From Thermosphaera aggregans DSM 11486 (GTDB lineage: Archaea > Thermoproteota > Thermoprotei_A > Sulfolobales > Desulfurococcaceae), in NCBI RefSeq assembly GCF_000092185.1, contig NC_014160.1, positions 124,001 through 188,000 on the forward strand: DNA of 64,000 nt. The letters are read 5' to 3'. This document shows positions 18,888-47,737 of this stretch, in pieces. Each line of letters opens with the position of its first letter. Within the stretch, counting starts at the first letter, position 1. A program made the translations under genes and the position numbers. The notes under the pieces are model-generated. The model saw only the letters and a program-made list of their open reading frames with translations, was not told where the DNA came from and ran no database searches.

Positions 18888-20826
18888 GCTTGACTTTAAA
18901 GAGTTAGGGTTAAGGGTCGGCCTCGAAATTCATGTCCAATTAGATACTTCCAGGAAGCTTTTCTGTAAATGCCCTACGAAGCTGGTGGAGGAGCGGTCGA
19001 AGTTCAACATAGAAAGGGGCTTAAGACCTGCCAAGAGCGAAACAGGCGAGGTCGATCCAGCGGCTATGTTGGAGTGGAGGAGGGAGCGAGTATTCATATA
19101 CGAGGCTCCGCCGGAATCCTCGTGTCTCGTAGAGATTGATGAGGAACCGCCGCACCAGCTGGACGAGGACTCGTTAACGGTCGCCATAGCCATTGCAAAG
19201 GCGTTGAACATGAGAGTCGTGGATGAAATCCACGTGATGAGGAAGATCGTAGTGGACGGGAGCAATGTAAGCGGGTTCCAGAGAACAGCGCTGATAGCGT
19301 TAAACGGATTCATCATGGAGGGAGAGAAGAAGATAGGTATTCAAACCCTTTGCCTCGAAGAAGATGCTGCTAGGAAAATTAGTGAAGAAGGGAATAAGGT
19401 CTTCTACCGTGTTGACAGGTTAGGAATCCCCCTGGTTGAAATAGCCACGGCTCCCGATATCAATGACCCCGAGGAAGCAATGAGAGTCGCCTTAAAGCTT
19501 GGGCAATTAGTGAGGTTAACCGGTTACGCAAAGAGAGGTTTGGGCACTATAAGACAGGATCTTAACGTAAGTATTCGCGATGGTGCTAAGGTCGAGATAA
19601 AGGGAGTGCAGCATTTGTATTTAATCCCCAAGGTTGTAGAGCTCGAAGCCCTGCGTCAGCAAAGGCTTTTGGAAATCAGAAATGAATTATTGAGAAGAAA
19701 CGTGAAACCAGAGGATTTAAAAGAAGAGATTGTCGATGTAACAGAGGTTTTCGAAAACACATCCTCAAAGATTATACGGAAATCCATAGCAACCCCTGGT
19801 AACGGAGTGTTTGCGGTAGTGTTGAAAAAATTCAAGGGATTGTTGGGCAAGGAGGTGCAACCTGGGAGGAGGTTTGGCACCGAATTAGCGGATTATGCGA
19901 GAGTATGGGGCGGTGTTGGGGGAATATTCCACACGGACGAATTGCCAAACTATGGAATAACTGCTGAGGAAGTAAGAAACCTTTACGAGAAGCTTGGTGC
20001 AAATCCCGGTGAGGACGCGATAGTGATCGTTGCTGATCAACGGGAGAAGTGTGTTAAAGCCTTGAAAGCAGTGGTGGATAGGGCGAGGCAAGCGGTAATC
20101 GGGGTTCCGGAGGAAACTAGGAGTGCAAACCCTGATGGAACATCAAAGTATACGAGACCTCGCCCCGGGGCTGCAAGAATGTACCCTGAAACGGACATTC
20201 CTCTGGTATATGTCACCCCGGATTTGGTTGAAAAAGCTATGAAAATCGTCCCGGAACCCCCCGATGCTAAATTGAAAAGATTTGTAGAAGAACACAAGTT
20301 GAGTGTCGAGTTGGCGACCACGCTTATTAGAGATCTTAGGCTCGACCTGTATGAGAAACTTACCGCTAAGTACGGGGGGAGTGTGCAACCGTCGATTATT
20401 GCCTCAATTCTAGTTAACATAATCCCATCTCTCAGGAAGGAGAATGTTCCCATTGAGAACGTAACAGATGAGCTGATCGAAGAAATAGTAGACATGCTTT
20501 CAAGAGGGGAGATCTCTAAGGAAGCAATACCGGATTTGATGAAGCAGGCATTGCTCAATCCCGAGAAAAAGCTTAAGGAATTAGTGAAAGAGCTAGGAAT
20601 TACTAGGCTCGACGTGAATGAATTAGATAGAATTATTGAGGAAGTTGTAGAGAGGCACAGGGAAAAGCTTTTAGCAAGGAAGGAGAAAGCATTCGCTATT
20701 GCAATGAGCGAGACCATGAAAATTGTAAGAGGCAGGATTGACGGGGCAATAGTGGCTGAAAACGTTAAAAAGAAGTTGAGGGAAAAACTAAACATTGGAA
20801 GCGATGACGAGTACTCCCGACAATGA
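18880..20826 (+). CDS. gatE: Glutamyl-tRNA(Gln) amidotransferase subunit E
   Basis: Kinase and transamidase subunit partner of GatD, specific to Archaea. It begins with the GatB-like cradle domain ([20 protein letters not shown], shortened: [11 protein letters not shown]), carries the AspRS-like insertion in the middle, and ends in the helical and YqeY-like tail that grips tRNA. At 648 residues it is complete. Its start lies inside the end of gatD. A long open frame on the opposite strand (20037-20858) is a shadow of this gene. Confidence 0.97.
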
Positions 20827-20877
20827 TTGATGATTTGAAGGCATTTGACCGAGCACAATTATAACAGTTTTTAACCT

Positions 20878-20941
20878 AAGTGTGATGAGTATCCCCGGTG
20901 CGAGCGAGCGCGATGAGCTCTTAACGAGCGTGCTGATTTAG
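20878..20941 (+). ncRNA. Candidate C/D box guide sRNA
   Basis: Between gatE and the next gene are a C box GTGATGA (20882-20888), a C'-like box GCGATGA (20910-20916) and a D box CTGA (20933-20936). Flanking CTAA and TTAG can pair as a terminal stem. A weak D' (CGAG, 20901-20904) leaves a 12-nt first guide; its segment TATCCCCGG is complementary to CCGGGGAUA, which occurs in the conserved peptidyl-transferase region of 23S rRNA. A TATA-like stretch lies about 20 bp upstream. The poor D' box and 16-nt second guide are weaknesses. The nop5/fibrillarin genes elsewhere in the window supply the protein partners. Confidence 0.55.
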
Positions 20942-20988
20942 TGGATGTTGACCCTTGGCCGCGTCTGAACCGACTGGTGGTGAAGAGA

Positions 20989-21366
20989 ATGGTAGCCACT
21001 GAAGAATTAGTTAGAAAATGGTTGAGGGATTTTTTAAAGGGGAAACTGGGTGCAGAGGGGTTCACCGAGAAGGATATAAAGGAGCGGGATCTAAAGGGGG
21101 CATTACACTGTTTCACGATATTCAGAATTGTGCGGGGGAATGAGACGATTCTCATAAGGTTAGGGGACGGGTTTCTAAGGGTTTATTATATTGGCAGAGG
21201 CGTTGGGCAGGGAAAGAGAGAATTGTTGGAGGATCTGGGTCTTATAATTGAGGAAACTGAAGACTTCTTCACAGCCTATTATAAGAGAATGATTAGAGCC
21301 TTAAACATCGATGACTTGGAGCATGCTCTAACCCTATTATTAGAAGGAGTTTCCAATGAGACTTAG
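20989..21366 (+). CDS. Hypothetical protein
   Basis: I do not recognise this family. From ATG 20989 it encodes 126 residues, charged and likely alpha/beta, with a hydrophobic strand pattern near TIFRIVRGNETILIRLG. An in-frame GTG at 20941 would extend it by 16 residues, but that region abuts the candidate sRNA, and GGTGGTG precedes the ATG, so 20989 is preferred. It overlaps the next gene by 11 bp, indicating cotranscription with the HTH protein and phosphatase downstream. No metal-binding or catalytic motif is evident. Confidence 0.7.
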   Translation: MVATEELVRKWLRDFLKGKLGAEGFTEKDIKERDLKGALHCFTIFRIVRGNETILIRLGDGFLRVYYIGRGVGQGKRELLEDLGLIIEETEDFFTAYYKRMIRALNIDDLEHALTLLLEGVSNET

Positions 21367-22270
21367 CTATCCAAAACTGCACGACTTATGGAGGATCATA
21401 GAGCTATATAATTCAGGTTTGAAGCTCAAAGAAATATCCCAAACCCTAGGCCTGAAACCCTCCTATATTTCCTCACTAATTGCAAAAGGGTTTGAGTACG
21501 AGGTTCTCTATAGATATTATAATGTAAACCTGAGTGGTCTGAGAAGGCGTAAACCATTCTTCGTAATGATAGAGATGTCGCAGAAGGCGTATATTTCACA
21601 GTGTGTTGATAAAAATGTTAGAACACTATCTCTATATTACTCTTACGGTAGGAAACCGTTGATAATGATGTATCTTCTAGAACCAGCCGTAATCCCTGAG
21701 GAGGTTTTAAGAATTAATAATCAGCTCTGCCACGTCATCTTCTCCGGCTATGTAGAAGACGTCGTGATCCCTATTGAGAAGCATCTTGAGCGTAAAATAG
21801 TTTTCAAATCCCCGGATGAAAAAAGCTATTCCACAGTAGAGGATGAAATAGATGAGCTTATCTTGTTTGAAATATTCAACTTCTTCAATCCCCCGGTTCA
21901 AAATAATGTTAAGACTTCAGAGTTTTTGAGGAGTGTTGCTAAGAAATACGTGCTTAAAAGCATACCATTCCACTATTATAAACATGTTAAAAGCAAACTA
22001 TATCCTCGACTACTCTACAGGGCTCAGGGAGTGTATTCGTTGGCAAGGATCGCTACTCCAACGCTTTCAACATTGAACAGTCTGATTAACTTGCTGTTTA
22101 AGAATGAAGTCTTGACAGGTGTAGACCAGATTCATCTTTTAGATAAGAACCCTGTGTTAGCGATCCTTCATGGATGGGTCGATCCTTTAAAGCTGAACAA
22201 TCCACAGGTTTCACACGAGCCTATTGAAGGAGCCTCGTACGAGGTCTATCCTTATATTTCACTACTCTGA
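21356..22270 (+). CDS. Hypothetical protein with N-terminal helix-turn-helix
   Basis: A 304-residue protein whose first 45 residues look like a helix-turn-helix (SGLKLKEISQTLGLKPSYISS), implying DNA binding. The remaining 250 residues match no family I know; they are mixed alpha/beta with many aromatic residues and no transmembrane segment. It overlaps the preceding gene by 11 bp and is followed 21 bp later by a PPP-family phosphatase. A transcription factor whose C-terminal domain senses a ligand or partner is plausible but unproven. Confidence 0.65.
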   Translation: MRLSYPKLHDLWRIIELYNSGLKLKEISQTLGLKPSYISSLIAKGFEYEVLYRYYNVNLSGLRRRKPFFVMIEMSQKAYISQCVDKNVRTLSLYYSYGRKPLIMMYLLEPAVIPEEVLRINNQLCHVIFSGYVEDVVIPIEKHLERKIVFKSPDEKSYSTVEDEIDELILFEIFNFFNPPVQNNVKTSEFLRSVAKKYVLKSIPFHYYKHVKSKLYPRLLYRAQGVYSLARIATPTLSTLNSLINLLFKNEVLTGVDQIHLLDKNPVLAILHGWVDPLKLNNPQVSHEPIEGASYEVYPYISLL

Positions 22271-22291
22271 TAGGTTTTCAGGGAATTATTT

Positions 22292-23215
22292 ATGGGCAAG
22301 TTAGATGAAGTTTTGAGAAACGTGTTGAATATAGTTTCAGACCCTAGGAAATTAATTGAATTAATGAGGAATGCTTCAGGTAAAATTAAAGCTTCCACTG
22401 GAAACTATGTTTTTCATGAACCCGGAATTATTGAAGTTGAAAAAGGAGTAAACTTACATATAATAGGCGATCTTCACGGGGATATCCATTCATTACTCAC
22501 TATCCTGGAAAACAAGTTCGAATTAATGGGGAAAGGCAAAGACGTAATGGTTTTCCTGGGAGACTATGTTGACAGGGGCGACTACCAGATTGAGACACTG
22601 GCCATGGTCCTCTATTTGAAAACAACTTTCAATGATCAAATTATTCTCTTAAGAGGAAATCATGAGCCTCCTTCCTGGCTTATTCCCCAACCGCACGATT
22701 TTCCAAAAGTTTTAGTTGAAAGATACGGGGAGCAGGGGGAGGAGGTGTATAATGAGGCTTTAAACCTGTTCAACATACTCCCTATCGCGGCTTACCTACC
22801 TGGTGAATTACTAATGCTTCATGGCGGGCCACCGCTCAGAGTATTGGAGGCTTCCAGTTTCCAGGAAGCCTTCTCGATAAACACGGGGAAAGCTAGTCCT
22901 GAAATGCTGGAGGAAATATTGTGGAGTGATCCAGTTGAGCTTAACGTTGAGTTCATCGATTCTCCCAGGGGAGCGGGAGTTTTGTACGGTAAGAGAGTTT
23001 CTTCGAAAGCGCTAAGCCTGATACGCGGTAAATATCTTGTTAGGAGCCATGAAATGGTTAACGGCTATAGAATAGGGCACGACGGACTCGTGATCACTGT
23101 TTTCGACGCGGCCATCCCCTACGGCCTGGACTCGATAGGCCTGGTTGAATACTTGTACGATACTGGTAAAAACCGGTATGAGTTGAATCTTGTCAAAAAA
23201 TCTCCAAAGATTTAA
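22292..23215 (+). CDS. PPP-family serine/threonine protein phosphatase
   Basis: Metal-dependent phosphoprotein phosphatase of the PP1/PP2A type. All signature blocks are present: GDLHGD (D60, H62), GDYVDRGD (90-97), LLRGNHE (N123, H124), a glycine-histidine metal motif LMLHGGPP, and RSHE. The 307-residue length is close to other archaeal PPP enzymes, with a 55-residue N-terminal helical lead. It would reverse serine/threonine phosphorylation in the cytoplasm. Its neighbours are poorly known proteins, one with a DNA-binding motif, so it may act on a regulator encoded in the same cluster. Confidence 0.93.
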   Translation: MGKLDEVLRNVLNIVSDPRKLIELMRNASGKIKASTGNYVFHEPGIIEVEKGVNLHIIGDLHGDIHSLLTILENKFELMGKGKDVMVFLGDYVDRGDYQIETLAMVLYLKTTFNDQIILLRGNHEPPSWLIPQPHDFPKVLVERYGEQGEEVYNEALNLFNILPIAAYLPGELLMLHGGPPLRVLEASSFQEAFSINTGKASPEMLEEILWSDPVELNVEFIDSPRGAGVLYGKRVSSKALSLIRGKYLVRSHEMVNGYRIGHDGLVITVFDAAIPYGLDSIGLVEYLYDTGKNRYELNLVKKSPKI

Positions 23216-23301
23216 CATTTTTGACAGAAATTTCAACTATTAACCCGTTTTAAATCAGTTTATAAGTAGGTATTCTTCTAATGGATAACAGGTGACACGC
23301 G

Positions 23302-23628
23302 TTGAGCAACAACACTGAGGAAACGGTTGTAGACATCATTGATGAAGCAATCGGAGACATTCTCGAGGAATTATTGGAGAAATACTATGGTGACAACTTG
23401 GAGTCGGAAGAAGATTATGATGAGTTGATTTACAACATAGTCAACTTTATTAAAAAGGAAGTTTTCAAAGGGAAAGCAGATGTTGCCGAGATAAGAGACT
23501 TCTTATACAGGCTCAGAGAGAAGCCACACATTGCTAAACTAGTACTGAGTTACATCATTGGTAATTACTTCGAGAAAACGGGAAGCCTGGCAAGGCATGC
23601 ACGCATACCTGAAGGAGTCTCGATTTAA
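23302..23628 (+). CDS. Hypothetical acidic protein
   Basis: A 108-residue, strongly acidic, mostly helical protein (DIIDEAIGDILEELLEKYYG near the start; shortened: DEAIGDILEELLEK). No family is recognised. It starts with TTG after a GGTGA-containing leader, with a TATA-like TTTATAAGT near 23260. The next gene follows 13 bp after its stop, so both may be translated together. Acidic helical character is compatible with a small adaptor or a protein-binding partner, nothing more specific. Confidence 0.65.
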   Translation: MSNNTEETVVDIIDEAIGDILEELLEKYYGDNLESEEDYDELIYNIVNFIKKEVFKGKADVAEIRDFLYRLREKPHIAKLVLSYIIGNYFEKTGSLARHARIPEGVSI

Positions 23629-23641
23629 CCCCTCCTAAGGG

Positions 23642-24469
23642 GTGTTTTTAATTCCCCGTTCCAGGAAAACCGATTCCAAGGCTTCAAAAGGCAAGACTTC
23701 CGAGGTAGCAACAGGCAAGGCTAAGGAGCCCTCTGCTAAAAGAAAAACCTCTAAGAGTTTTTCAATAGATGATTTAGTTGAAAAAATGTCCGGTGAAGTT
23801 CTGGAATACCTGGGATTGAACGAGTTGAACATATCCAGTGAGTTGAAAAACGCGATTTCTCGAGAAGTTATTGAAGCAGTTACATCTGGGTATTCGAGTA
23901 AACCCGATATGGAAACAGTTTTGAAAAGAATCAAAAGAAACACTCAATACATATACGAGCTAGTCGTCTACAAGATGCTGGAGAACTTACAGGCTTTCGA
24001 TGAGAGAATCCTCGAATACGTGGTTTACCGGGGAGGAAGGTCTATCATACCGAGCGCTTCCAAGCTCTACAGCCTTGCCCGTAAATATGGTAGAGAAGAC
24101 CTCATCCTCATCCTCCAGTCAACATGGAATAAACACGTGTCAAGAGAGTTTCTAGATTGCCCAAGATGCGGGTTTAACAGCGTCTCCAGCGATCTCTCCT
24201 GCTCTATCTGCGGTAATATTGTTAGCGAGCAGTATGTTAGAACGCGGCTAGACTTCGCCAATAAGTTTAAGATATACGTGGAGTCTGCGAGCGTTGCAGA
24301 GTTGAGAAATGTTTTAGAACTAGGCTACGTCCTAGTGAATTCCACGGGGGTGTACTCTCCACGTTCCAGGAGCATTGTACCCGGTAGAGTTTATTATCAA
24401 ATATATCTTAAACCATCCGACATTTCCTTAATAGTTGAGAATATTAATCAACGAGAAATTAAGATTTAG
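23642..24469 (+). CDS. Hypothetical protein with central zinc ribbon
   Basis: A 275-residue protein with a basic, low-complexity N-terminus (Lys/Ser/Thr-rich, about 35 residues), a helical middle and a four-cysteine knuckle near 179-196 (CPRCGFNSV...CSICGN). The C-terminal 70 residues are beta-rich. I do not recognise the family. It starts with GTG 13 bp after the acidic protein gene and is convergent with the thioredoxin-like gene. The basic tail and zinc ribbon would suit a nucleic-acid binding role; this is inference. Confidence 0.65.
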   Translation: MFLIPRSRKTDSKASKGKTSEVATGKAKEPSAKRKTSKSFSIDDLVEKMSGEVLEYLGLNELNISSELKNAISREVIEAVTSGYSSKPDMETVLKRIKRNTQYIYELVVYKMLENLQAFDERILEYVVYRGGRSIIPSASKLYSLARKYGREDLILILQSTWNKHVSREFLDCPRCGFNSVSSDLSCSICGNIVSEQYVRTRLDFANKFKIYVESASVAELRNVLELGYVLVNSTGVYSPRSRSIVPGRVYYQIYLKPSDISLIVENINQREIKI

Positions 24470-24526: not shown

Positions 24527-24886
24527 TCAGACTCTTATTTTCACACCCTTTGAAGCAAGCGTGGAGCGGATTCCTCGTCTTAAAACCTGAACATTCAAAT
24601 CAAGGTTTTCGAAAACACCTTTCTGCTCGAAAATCATTGCTCCCTTATAATAGACTCTTATCAATGGGGTGGGGGAGAGTTTTTCCCCAGTTATGTCTTC
24701 CCTTAAAGCGTTTACTTTACAGACAAATATGTTGGGGTCAATATGCTTTTCCAACTCTTTTATTGTTTCGCTTAAAATACTGCTTTCTTTGCTTCCCGGG
24801 TAATAATACTCTATTATCACAAGCTCGTTAGCGGTTAAAGCTCGTTCAAACTCTTCCCTACTATTGAGCTCGTACATTAAACTCAC
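24527..24886 (-). CDS. Thioredoxin-fold protein lacking active-site cysteines
   Basis: The 119-residue sequence follows a thioredoxin pattern: a beta strand LVIIEYYYPG, a helix, strand NIFVCKVNA, the cis-proline loop (T73-P74 in SPTPLIRVYYKG) and a closing GVF-type strand. Where thioredoxins have CxxC, this has SKES (32-35), so it cannot do dithiol exchange. It may be a binding or chaperone module. Its promoter region backs onto that of the thermosome gene, divergently. The fold call is by eye. Confidence 0.6.
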   Translation of the reverse strand: MSLMYELNSREEFERALTANELVIIEYYYPGSKESSILSETIKELEKHIDPNIFVCKVNALREDITGEKLSPTPLIRVYYKGAMIFEQKGVFENLDLNVQVLRRGIRSTLASKGVKIRV

Positions 24887-45716: not shown

Positions 45717-46862
45717 TTGGAGAGTTTAGATGAAATCATTTCCAGGTTGAAGGAATGGTACTCGCGCACACCTAAGCATTTTGAAGGAACAATCCTCGGC
45801 TCCATGACCACGTGGCCCCATCCTATAGGAGTTTATGCATACCAGTTGTTTATCCATATTAACGGTAATGATCCAGTGTTGTTTCCAATAGTTCAAGAGC
45901 TTGAGAAAGAATTGCTCGCAATGATTGGATCCCTGTATGGTTCACGATATGGGTTGTTTACTAGTGGGGGGACAGAATCTAATATCCTAGCATTATTCGT
46001 GGCGCGCAGGGTTTCCAGAGGTAAGAATAACGTAGTGGTAGCTCCCTCAACTGTTCATGCCTCTATTGACAAGGCCTGCCAATTGATGGGTACAAGGTTG
46101 GTTAAAATACCCGTGAATCCGTTGAGTCCTGTTGATCCCGATATCCTTGAAAAATATGTTAGAGAATATAATCCTTTTGCGGTTGTCGTGACCGCTGGAA
46201 CAACGGAGACGGGAGTTGTCGACAGGGTGAAGGATGTATCGGAGATAGCGTTGAAACACGATGTCTACCTACATGTTGACGCAGCCTTTGGTGGATTGTT
46301 AATCCCCTTTCTCCATAAACACGGGGTTATAGATACTGATTTAACGTTTTATCCGGGTGTTTCCAGCATCTCGGTCGACCTGCATAAGAACGGCAGAGCT
46401 CCTATTCCATCCAGCTTATTGTTTTTCAGAAGCGAAACCTATGTCGATAAAGCCTGTTTTGAAATGAATTATTTACCCTCCGGCGTTAACTGTGGATTGC
46501 TGGGGACAAGACCCGGGGCATCCCTAGTTGCCTCCTGGGCTGTGGTTAAAGCGATTGGTTTAGAAGGGTATGAAAAGCAGGCGCTTGCGCAACAGGATAC
46601 TGCTCTCTATCTTTTCAAGGAGCTTGATAATAGAGAATTCATAGAGGTTTTTAAACCAGTGCTACCAATCGTGGCCTGGAGGTCTAAGCTCTACGACTAT
46701 GAGGTAATGATTAAGAAGCTTTTTAACGAAGGAATATTCCTCTATAAATCTCCATCTCTAAAAGCAGCTAGAGTAGTGGTAATGCCTCATGTAACAAGAG
46801 AAAACATTGATGCATTACTAAAAGCCTTAGACAAAATCCACTCCGGGAGTGGTTATGATTGA
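45717..46862 (+). CDS. mfnA: Group II PLP decarboxylase, MfnA-like (tyrosine/aspartate decarboxylase)
   Basis: PLP enzyme of 381 residues with TSGGTESNILAL (phosphate/aldehyde pocket), HVDAAFGG and the internal aldimine lysine K224 in DLHKNGR. In methanogens MfnA makes tyramine for methanofuran; in Thermococcales-type archaea homologues act on aspartate to give beta-alanine for CoA synthesis, the likelier role in a non-methanogen. It starts with TTG after GAGGGG and overlaps the rio2 gene by 4 bp. Confidence 0.88.
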   Translation: MESLDEIISRLKEWYSRTPKHFEGTILGSMTTWPHPIGVYAYQLFIHINGNDPVLFPIVQELEKELLAMIGSLYGSRYGLFTSGGTESNILALFVARRVSRGKNNVVVAPSTVHASIDKACQLMGTRLVKIPVNPLSPVDPDILEKYVREYNPFAVVVTAGTTETGVVDRVKDVSEIALKHDVYLHVDAAFGGLLIPFLHKHGVIDTDLTFYPGVSSISVDLHKNGRAPIPSSLLFFRSETYVDKACFEMNYLPSGVNCGLLGTRPGASLVASWAVVKAIGLEGYEKQALAQQDTALYLFKELDNREFIEVFKPVLPIVAWRSKLYDYEVMIKKLFNEGIFLYKSPSLKAARVVVMPHVTRENIDALLKALDKIHSGSGYD

Positions 46863-47737
46863 ACATTGGGTTAGTCTATAAAAGCTTGACGGAGAAAGAT
46901 TTTACTGTTTTAAGAGCTATTGAGGAATATTCTTCAAAATATGAGTATGTTCCGCTAGAATTAATTGAGAAAAGGACCAGGATTATTGAGGAGCATTTGA
47001 CGCTAATCCTTAATAAGCTGAACAAGCTGAAGTTGGTGAAAAGAGAGACTATTGCAGGGTACAAGAGTTACAGGCTAACCTACCTAGGTTACGATATGCT
47101 GGCTCTTAACAGCTTGGTAAGGAAGAATGTTTTAGAAGCTTTGGGAGATAAGATAGGTGTTGGGAAAGAAAGCGAAATATATGTTGGCTTAGCTCCTGGG
47201 GGAGTAAGGGTTGCGGTTAAATTCCTCAGGATAGGGCGTACAAGTTTTCGTAGGACTAAAATACTTAGAACATGGGTTCAGGAGCCACATACATCGTGGT
47301 ACAGGCAGGCGAGAATAGCGGCTGAGAGGGAGTTTAAAGCGCTGAAAGAGCTTTCCTTGCTGAAAGCGCTTGTCCCAGCCCCCTTCGGTTATGACAGGCA
47401 CGTGGTCGTTACTGAATACGTGGAGGGCGTGGAGCTTTACAGGAGACCTTCGCTTGAGAATCCTGAGGAGGTTTTTTGGAAGACGGTTGATACGTTGAGA
47501 TTAGCGTACCAGGAAGTGGGAATAGTTCACAGCGATTTAAGCGAGTACAACATATTGGTGAGAATAGATGATCAGACTCCTTTCATAATAGATTGGCCCC
47601 AGTACGTTTACAAGGATCATCCGTCTTCAATAGAGTTGTTGAGGAGGGATGTGGAGTACCTAGTCAAATTCTTCAATAAAGTCTACCGGGTTAACGTACA
47701 AATTGACGATGCGTTGAAGAAAATATTAGGGAGCTAA
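46859..47737 (+). CDS. rio2: RIO2-type atypical serine kinase
   Basis: Kinase of late small-subunit maturation. The N-terminal winged helix (about 1-90) is diagnostic of RIO2; the kinase domain has GVGKESEIYVG nucleotide loop, catalytic D226 in HSDLSEYN and metal-binding D245 in IIDWPQ. 292 residues is the archaeal length. TTG start overlapping the decarboxylase stop (TTGA). The next gene is DUF460, 59 bp further; both could serve rRNA maturation. Confidence 0.95.
   Translation: MNIGLVYKSLTEKDFTVLRAIEEYSSKYEYVPLELIEKRTRIIEEHLTLILNKLNKLKLVKRETIAGYKSYRLTYLGYDMLALNSLVRKNVLEALGDKIGVGKESEIYVGLAPGGVRVAVKFLRIGRTSFRRTKILRTWVQEPHTSWYRQARIAAEREFKALKELSLLKALVPAPFGYDRHVVVTEYVEGVELYRRPSLENPEEVFWKTVDTLRLAYQEVGIVHSDLSEYNILVRIDDQTPFIIDWPQYVYKDHPSSIELLRRDVEYLVKFFNKVYRVNVQIDDALKKILGS

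Follow-up and report, generated by a model that had tools for sequence, protein, structure and literature searches.

The five-gene cluster of Thermosphaera aggregans DSM 11486 at 20941/20989–24469 of a 64,000-nucleotide stretch (contig NC_014160.1, positions 124,001 to 188,000; hereafter the window) is real and well conserved, and is made of two modules. Its five consecutive rightward open reading frames (ORFs) encode a small orphan (p1), a helix-turn-helix (HTH) protein, a PPP-family Ser/Thr protein phosphatase (PPP), an acidic orphan, and a zinc-ribbon orphan. We consider it probable that p1-HTH-PPP and the acidic/zinc-ribbon pair are two older modules adjoining each other. The most secure new fact concerns the zinc-ribbon protein, a core protein that is nearly universal in the order and has no known fold. 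The most useful new lead is p1, together with bs, an orphan encoded beside it in relatives, as a candidate archaeal PPP partner.

Reality of the five genes

The initial annotation, made from the sequence alone, described five linked rightward genes, and all five ORFs were present. Ratios of nonsynonymous to synonymous substitution rates (dN/dS) against genome G083, which fits Thermosphaera sp. 3507, were 0.26 for p1, 0.13 for the HTH protein, 0.075 for PPP, 0.06 for the acidic protein, and 0.12 for the zinc-ribbon protein. Because these values lie between 0.06 and 0.26, all five are real genes under purifying selection. PPP had been considered the only recognizable gene, and it alone passed the curated Pfam cut-off (PF00149, E-value of 2.9e-23). 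The other four proteins yielded nothing in NCBIfam except for a single weak HTH-like match. The described overlap between p1 and the HTH gene is present (11 nucleotides), as are an acidic protein of 108 residues with an isoelectric point (pI) of 4.6 and a basic zinc-ribbon protein of 275 residues with a pI of 9.3. The length of p1 required a correction: it had been given as 126 residues, and the conserved ATG at 20989 gives 125 amino acids.

Gene order in relatives

Gene order was compared by searching for the five proteins in 147 genomes of the order, in which families are labeled f1 to f16 (f1, the family of T. aggregans itself, 22 genomes; f8, Pyrodictiaceae), genomes carry G-numbers, and loci carry L-numbers. 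GatE, PPP, a disulfide oxidoreductase (PDO), and a ribonucleotide reductase (RNR) were named by domain or profile matches, and the thermosome, rpoK, and the M50 protease by sequence resemblance. These searches detected PPP in 138 genomes, the zinc-ribbon protein in 134, the acidic protein in 56, the HTH protein in 20, and p1 in 7. Gene order in relatives was retained far beyond chance.

Retention of the gene set elsewhere had been named as support for a unit, and it is seen inside f1 but not for the five genes together. PPP, acidic, and zinc-ribbon genes were contiguous in 22/22 f1 genomes, and the HTH gene stood directly before PPP in 16 of the 22, with one gene between them in 2 more. In three Desulfurococcus-type genomes (G041, which fits Desulfurococcus mucosus, G030, and G009), gatD-gatE-(p1)-HTH lies apart from PPP-acidic-zinc ribbon-thermosome, at a distance of approximately 140–190 kb in G041 and G030 and 30 kb in G009; p1 was present in two of the three. 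The order in f4 and f10 (L166–L168) is p1-bs-PPP-F13-PDO-RNR-acidic-zinc ribbon-thioredoxin-like-thermosome-rpoK-M50, F13 being a small HTH gene. In families other than f1, the acidic/zinc-ribbon pair is split from PPP by the F13-PDO-RNR block or located elsewhere. The p1-bs block is inverted in Pyrodictiaceae, and acidic-zinc ribbon-thioredoxin-like-thermosome is unchanged.

Since the F13-PDO-RNR block lies between them in other families, the adjacency of PPP and the acidic/zinc-ribbon pair in f1 probably arose by loss. The simplest reading is that f1 lost this block, which would have brought PPP beside the pair. An opposite-strand ORF of approximately 105 amino acids is located between PPP and the acidic gene in eight f1 genomes (e.g., L151:7954–8271, minus strand), and a TTTATAA-like box precedes the acidic gene in most f1 genomes. 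In the window, this likely TATA box of the acidic/zinc-ribbon unit lies at 23259–23266 on the plus strand (TTTATAAG). The ORF and the box suggest that p1-HTH-PPP and acidic-zinc ribbon are likely two transcription units.

The phosphatase had been proposed to form a phosphorylation-dependent regulatory unit with the DNA-binding and zinc-ribbon proteins. In such a unit of five, PPP would dephosphorylate the HTH protein and/or the zinc-ribbon protein and thereby switch DNA binding. We regard this as very unlikely: although the unbroken contiguity of PPP-acidic-zinc ribbon in f1 and the position of the HTH gene next to PPP in most of its genomes are what it predicts, the HTH gene is limited to f1 and separable from PPP, the acidic/zinc-ribbon pair stands separately in other families behind a predicted promoter of its own, and the opposite-strand ORF intervenes in eight genomes. 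The part of the proposal that survives is that of partners for PPP, for which p1 (plus bs) are better candidates than the zinc-ribbon protein.

The phosphatase

PPP (22292–23215, plus strand; 307 amino acids) carries all of the metal-binding motifs GDxHG, GDYVDRG, GNHE, HGG, and (R)xHE, which were invariant in an alignment of 25 relatives (G59 D60 H62, G90 D91 D94 R95, R121 G122 H124 E125, H177 G178, and R251 H253). Within the two-arginine clamp, the second arginine lies in the domain 3 loop as R226 of SPRGAG and was also invariant in 25 sequences. Its profile matched calcineurin, PP2A, PP5, and PP1 structure chains with E-values of 1e-70 to 1e-51. The second clamp arginine is a feature of EukaryoticPPP-like enzymes as defined previously, and three characterized archaeal members act on phosphoserine and phosphothreonine (PMC8249667). 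Given these invariant residues and the matches to PPP structures, the T. aggregans protein fits this archaeal group. Motifs and homology support it being an active eukaryotic-type Ser/Thr phosphatase.

PPP shares its fold, metal- and phosphate-binding motifs, and two-arginine clamp with PP1-arch of Sulfolobus solfataricus, Py-PP1 of Pyrodictium abyssi, and Saci PP2A. However, it was placed on a branch apart from the Sulfolobaceae PPPs in a tree that follows gene context, and it resides in an operon with p1 and the HTH gene (p1 and bs in relatives). No partner of the p1, HTH, or bs kind was reported for Saci PP2A in the literature examined.

p1 and bs as candidate partners

p1 (20989–21366, plus strand) is the first gene of the operon that also holds PPP. 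A GTG at 20941 would give 141 amino acids; the best start is the conserved ATG at 20989, which is preceded by a GGTGGTGA motif. A p1 profile search reached 53 of the 147 genomes at E-values of 0.01 or less, approximately 46 of which we judged credible. p1 is an old family and evolves rapidly, with a mean column identity of 25% and a median pI of 6.8.

p1, with bs where present, accompanies PPP across families, and p1 lies within approximately 4 kb of PPP in 26 genomes from several families. In most of the other families that have p1, it is followed by bs and then PPP. The bs proteins are a fast-evolving, beta-rich orphan family of approximately 300–450 amino acids (e.g., L166:4100–5437, L168:11183–12475, and L180:5867–6931, and their relatives); the window itself has no bs. 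The bs ORF either overlaps the p1 ORF or comes very close to it, and the same often holds for PPP. Spacing within p1-bs-PPP and p1-HTH-PPP consists of overlaps or a few tens of nucleotides: in one bs group all p1-to-bs gaps (10/10) were −4, and in the other they were mostly overlaps or near zero, the bs-to-PPP gap was −26 to +49, and the p1-to-HTH gap was −11 to +51. The link between p1 and PPP is strong but not exclusive.

These gaps also bear on whether any functional link is needed. The region, comprising gatDE, the PPP operon, the acidic/zinc-ribbon pair, the thioredoxin-like gene, the thermosome, rpoK, and the M50 protease, may simply evolve slowly and preserve the order of unrelated housekeeping neighbors. 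It does hold many clearly unrelated genes that are retained over families; however, slow evolution leaves unexplained both the start/stop overlaps inside p1-bs-PPP and the cohesion of p1 and bs when their block is inverted or moved. We consider this explanation fairly unlikely.

The AlphaFold2 model of p1 (predicted local distance difference test [pLDDT] score of 87) contains a helix, four strands, a helix, two strands, and a helix. The best Foldseek matches were YbjN-type proteins, type III secretion chaperones, and the MotA C-terminal domain, with E-values of 2.7e-3 or higher and template modeling (TM) scores of 0.4–0.6. The layout is shared with these folds, and the Foldseek probability was near 1 for several of them. 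However, p1 has no sequence relationship to them, E-values exceed 1e-3, and the protein is archaeal with no secretion system involved. A PDB profile search with p1 returned only unrelated marginal matches, with no sequence homology to a type III secretion chaperone or YbjN, and that with bs nothing usable. Marginal histone and MurA-type matches in the PDB searches with p1, bs, the acidic protein, and the zinc-ribbon protein were discarded as low-complexity or chance matches. A likeness of bs to the beta-domains at the C-terminus of GH38 enzymes was considered; neither Pfam nor PDB profiles supported it, and it is not claimed. The fold matches of the p1 model are a lead toward a small binding protein, short of an assignment.

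The model resembles secretion chaperones and the MotA double-wing domain equally closely, and p1 may instead be a DNA- or RNA-binding regulator. The MotA matches have the higher TM scores (0.50–0.62) and the next gene in f1 encodes a transcription regulator, but the median pI of the p1 family is only 6.8; we consider a nucleic acid-binding p1 improbable. As a PPP partner, p1 may be a small co-translated protein whose predicted alpha/beta fold is chaperone- or adaptor-like. It would most likely bind the product of the next gene and/or PPP, and set its stability or target choice. Where p1 precedes bs, as in most p1-bearing families, bs would share this role.

C/D-box RNA candidates at the p1 start

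A candidate small RNA (sRNA) had been placed upstream of the cluster. It is real in form, but it is not single: three C/D-box candidates lie in tandem in the gatE-p1 interval (20800–21005, plus strand) and are conserved in f1. Boxes C, D', C', and D, with guides of 10–12 nucleotides, are conserved among relatives. The candidates reached only sub-threshold C/D matches in Rfam, below the gathering score. Rfam holds only some species-specific C/D families, and its gathering score does not define a C/D sRNA.

Candidate A (20800–20855) overlaps gatE at its 3' end, stop codon included, and the candidate's boxes and guides are conserved in f1 and other families. Its D guide, AAGGCATTTG, has a 10-nucleotide match to 23S rRNA (CAAATGCCTT), which was reached by 8 of 1,000 shuffled guides. 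Candidate B (20876–20941), the sRNA of the initial annotation, has a C box GTGATGA at 20882–20888, a C' box CGATGA at 20911–20916, a D box CTGA at 20933–20936, and a terminal stem CTAAG/TTTAG; its boxes and D guide, ACGAGCGTG-CTGA, are conserved in most f1 genomes. A guide search with a shuffle control found no significant rRNA or tRNA target for it.

Candidate C (20943–21005) contains the p1 start codon. It has a D' guide CCTTGGCCGC at 20953–20962 followed by CTGA at 20965–20968, a D guide ATGGTAGCCA followed by CTGA at 20999–21002, and an atypical C box (GGATGTTGA). The D guide and box, ATGGTAGCC-N-CTGA, translate as MVA[TSA]E (MVATE in p1). Since candidate C is also kept in f1 genomes in which p1 is not recognizable, the conserved MVA[TSA]E N-terminus of p1 is attributable to the RNA. 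This overlap is a warning that an overlapping guide RNA can impose conserved N-termini on archaeal proteins.

The D' guide of candidate C pairs over 10 nucleotides with the D-arm of tRNA-Gln, a match reached by 35 of 1,000 shuffles; this predicted pairing would place a methyl group near G18. The Pyrodictiaceae version also overlaps the p1 start and has one mismatch to its own tRNA-Gln. In a covariation test in Pyrodictiaceae, the guide changed and the tRNA did not, leaving this target unsupported.

C/D genes are known to occur in groups of two or three and to overlap ORFs at the 3' end or, less often, at the 5' end, in which case the gene downstream is expressed less (PMC7994747). The present arrangement differs from the ORF-overlapping archaeal sRNAs (Tripp et al. 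2017, reviewed in PMC7994747) in having three in a row and in that the D guide of candidate C coincides with the opening codons of a gene in a phosphatase operon. Maturation of candidate C from a shared transcript would remove the p1 start and could limit p1 synthesis.

p1 as a proposed partner subunit

Eukaryotic PPP phosphatases gain specificity from partner subunits. The literature examined yielded no description of partners dedicated to archaeal PPPs. Conservation of a short operon across several crenarchaeal families points to p1 and bs as testable candidates. In its full form, with p1 and either bs or the HTH protein as an archaeal-specific partner subunit of a eukaryotic-type PPP, and its synthesis limited by maturation of the guide RNA that contains its start codon, we regard the proposal as quite unlikely.

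Several observations weigh against the favored two-module reading of the cluster, with p1 as a candidate PPP partner. p1 was not credibly detected in Sulfolobaceae by the profile search. Approximately ten Pyrodictiaceae genomes have p1-bs without this PPP nearby, so that the association of p1 is not exclusive to PPP. Matches of the p1 model to known folds are weak (best E-value of 2.7e-3, TM scores of 0.4–0.6) and without sequence homology. Co-immunoprecipitation with PP2A of S. acidocaldarius recovered ArnA, ArnB, a GPN GTPase, and a universal stress protein, and no p1-like proteins (PMC7472852). Moreover, loss of the F13-PDO-RNR block in f1, rather than its gain elsewhere, is a probable event read from gene order alone.

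The acidic and zinc-ribbon pair

The acidic protein (23302–23628, plus strand; TTG start) and the zinc-ribbon protein (23642–24469, plus strand) are an old pair, and the zinc-ribbon gene follows the acidic gene in nearly all genomes with both. The zinc-ribbon protein was found in 134/147 genomes of the order and 128/147 of a class-level sample. It has a basic disordered N-terminal tail, a helical body, and an alpha/beta end. Its four cysteines, C173, C176, C187, and C190, form two CxxC knuckles and were invariant in 44 sequences. The CPxCGF...CxxCG arrangement resembles TFIIB-type zinc ribbons; however, the ribbon is set in a helical protein that lies far under the Pfam cut-off, and the AlphaFold2 model (pLDDT of 90) had no fold match among PDB structures or viral models. 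PDB profile searches with both proteins gave nothing usable, and the acidic protein has no PDB relative. The pair contributes a core protein that is nearly universal in the order and has neither a solved fold nor a family model.

Opposite charges (pI of 4.6 and 9.3) and constant pairing suggest that the two proteins form a complex. Such a complex would probably consist of two proteins of complementary charge and bind nucleic acid or a large ribonucleoprotein, and its role may be a core function of the order independent of PPP.

In Sulfolobus, the ORF that precedes the zinc-ribbon gene was compared as a possible acidic homologue and is not a member of the acidic family. In the eight genomes of f9 (e.g., L126 and L185), the zinc-ribbon gene was not found in any, and the acidic gene is located beside RNR; the acidic protein was detected in all eight, weakly in one. 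A thioredoxin-fold protein without CxxC (24527–24886, minus strand) is encoded beside the thermosome gene in most genomes examined, and is reminiscent of phosducin-like chaperonin partners.

The HTH protein

The HTH protein (21356–22270, plus strand; 304 amino acids) has an N-terminal Lrp/AsnC-type winged-helix DNA-binding domain. Its profile matched PDB entries of Lrp/AsnC regulators (2efo, E-value of 8e-6; PH0061 [2dbb], E-value of 2e-4), and generic HTH models matched several members. The 2dbb match, spanning residues 9–132, was the only one to extend over the region in which a RAM effector domain would follow; the others stop near residue 74. By profile, the winged helix, and in the 2dbb match the region after it, resemble those of feast/famine regulators, such as ST1022 and PH0061. 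However, the protein has 304 amino acids versus approximately 150, and its C-terminal half has no family match. A tandem duplication was considered, and a repeat test detected no copy of the first half in the second. The gene was present in 20/22 f1 genomes and was not found outside f1 among the 147 genomes. It is best read as a lineage-specific Lrp-type regulator added in f1, and it may control the operon or be a substrate of the phosphatase.

The nearest protein kinase noticed within the window is encoded by a RIO2-type gene (46859–47737), placed by its signature motifs. Its presence agrees with the initial annotation, and its distance from the cluster is 22.4 kb (23 kb in that annotation).

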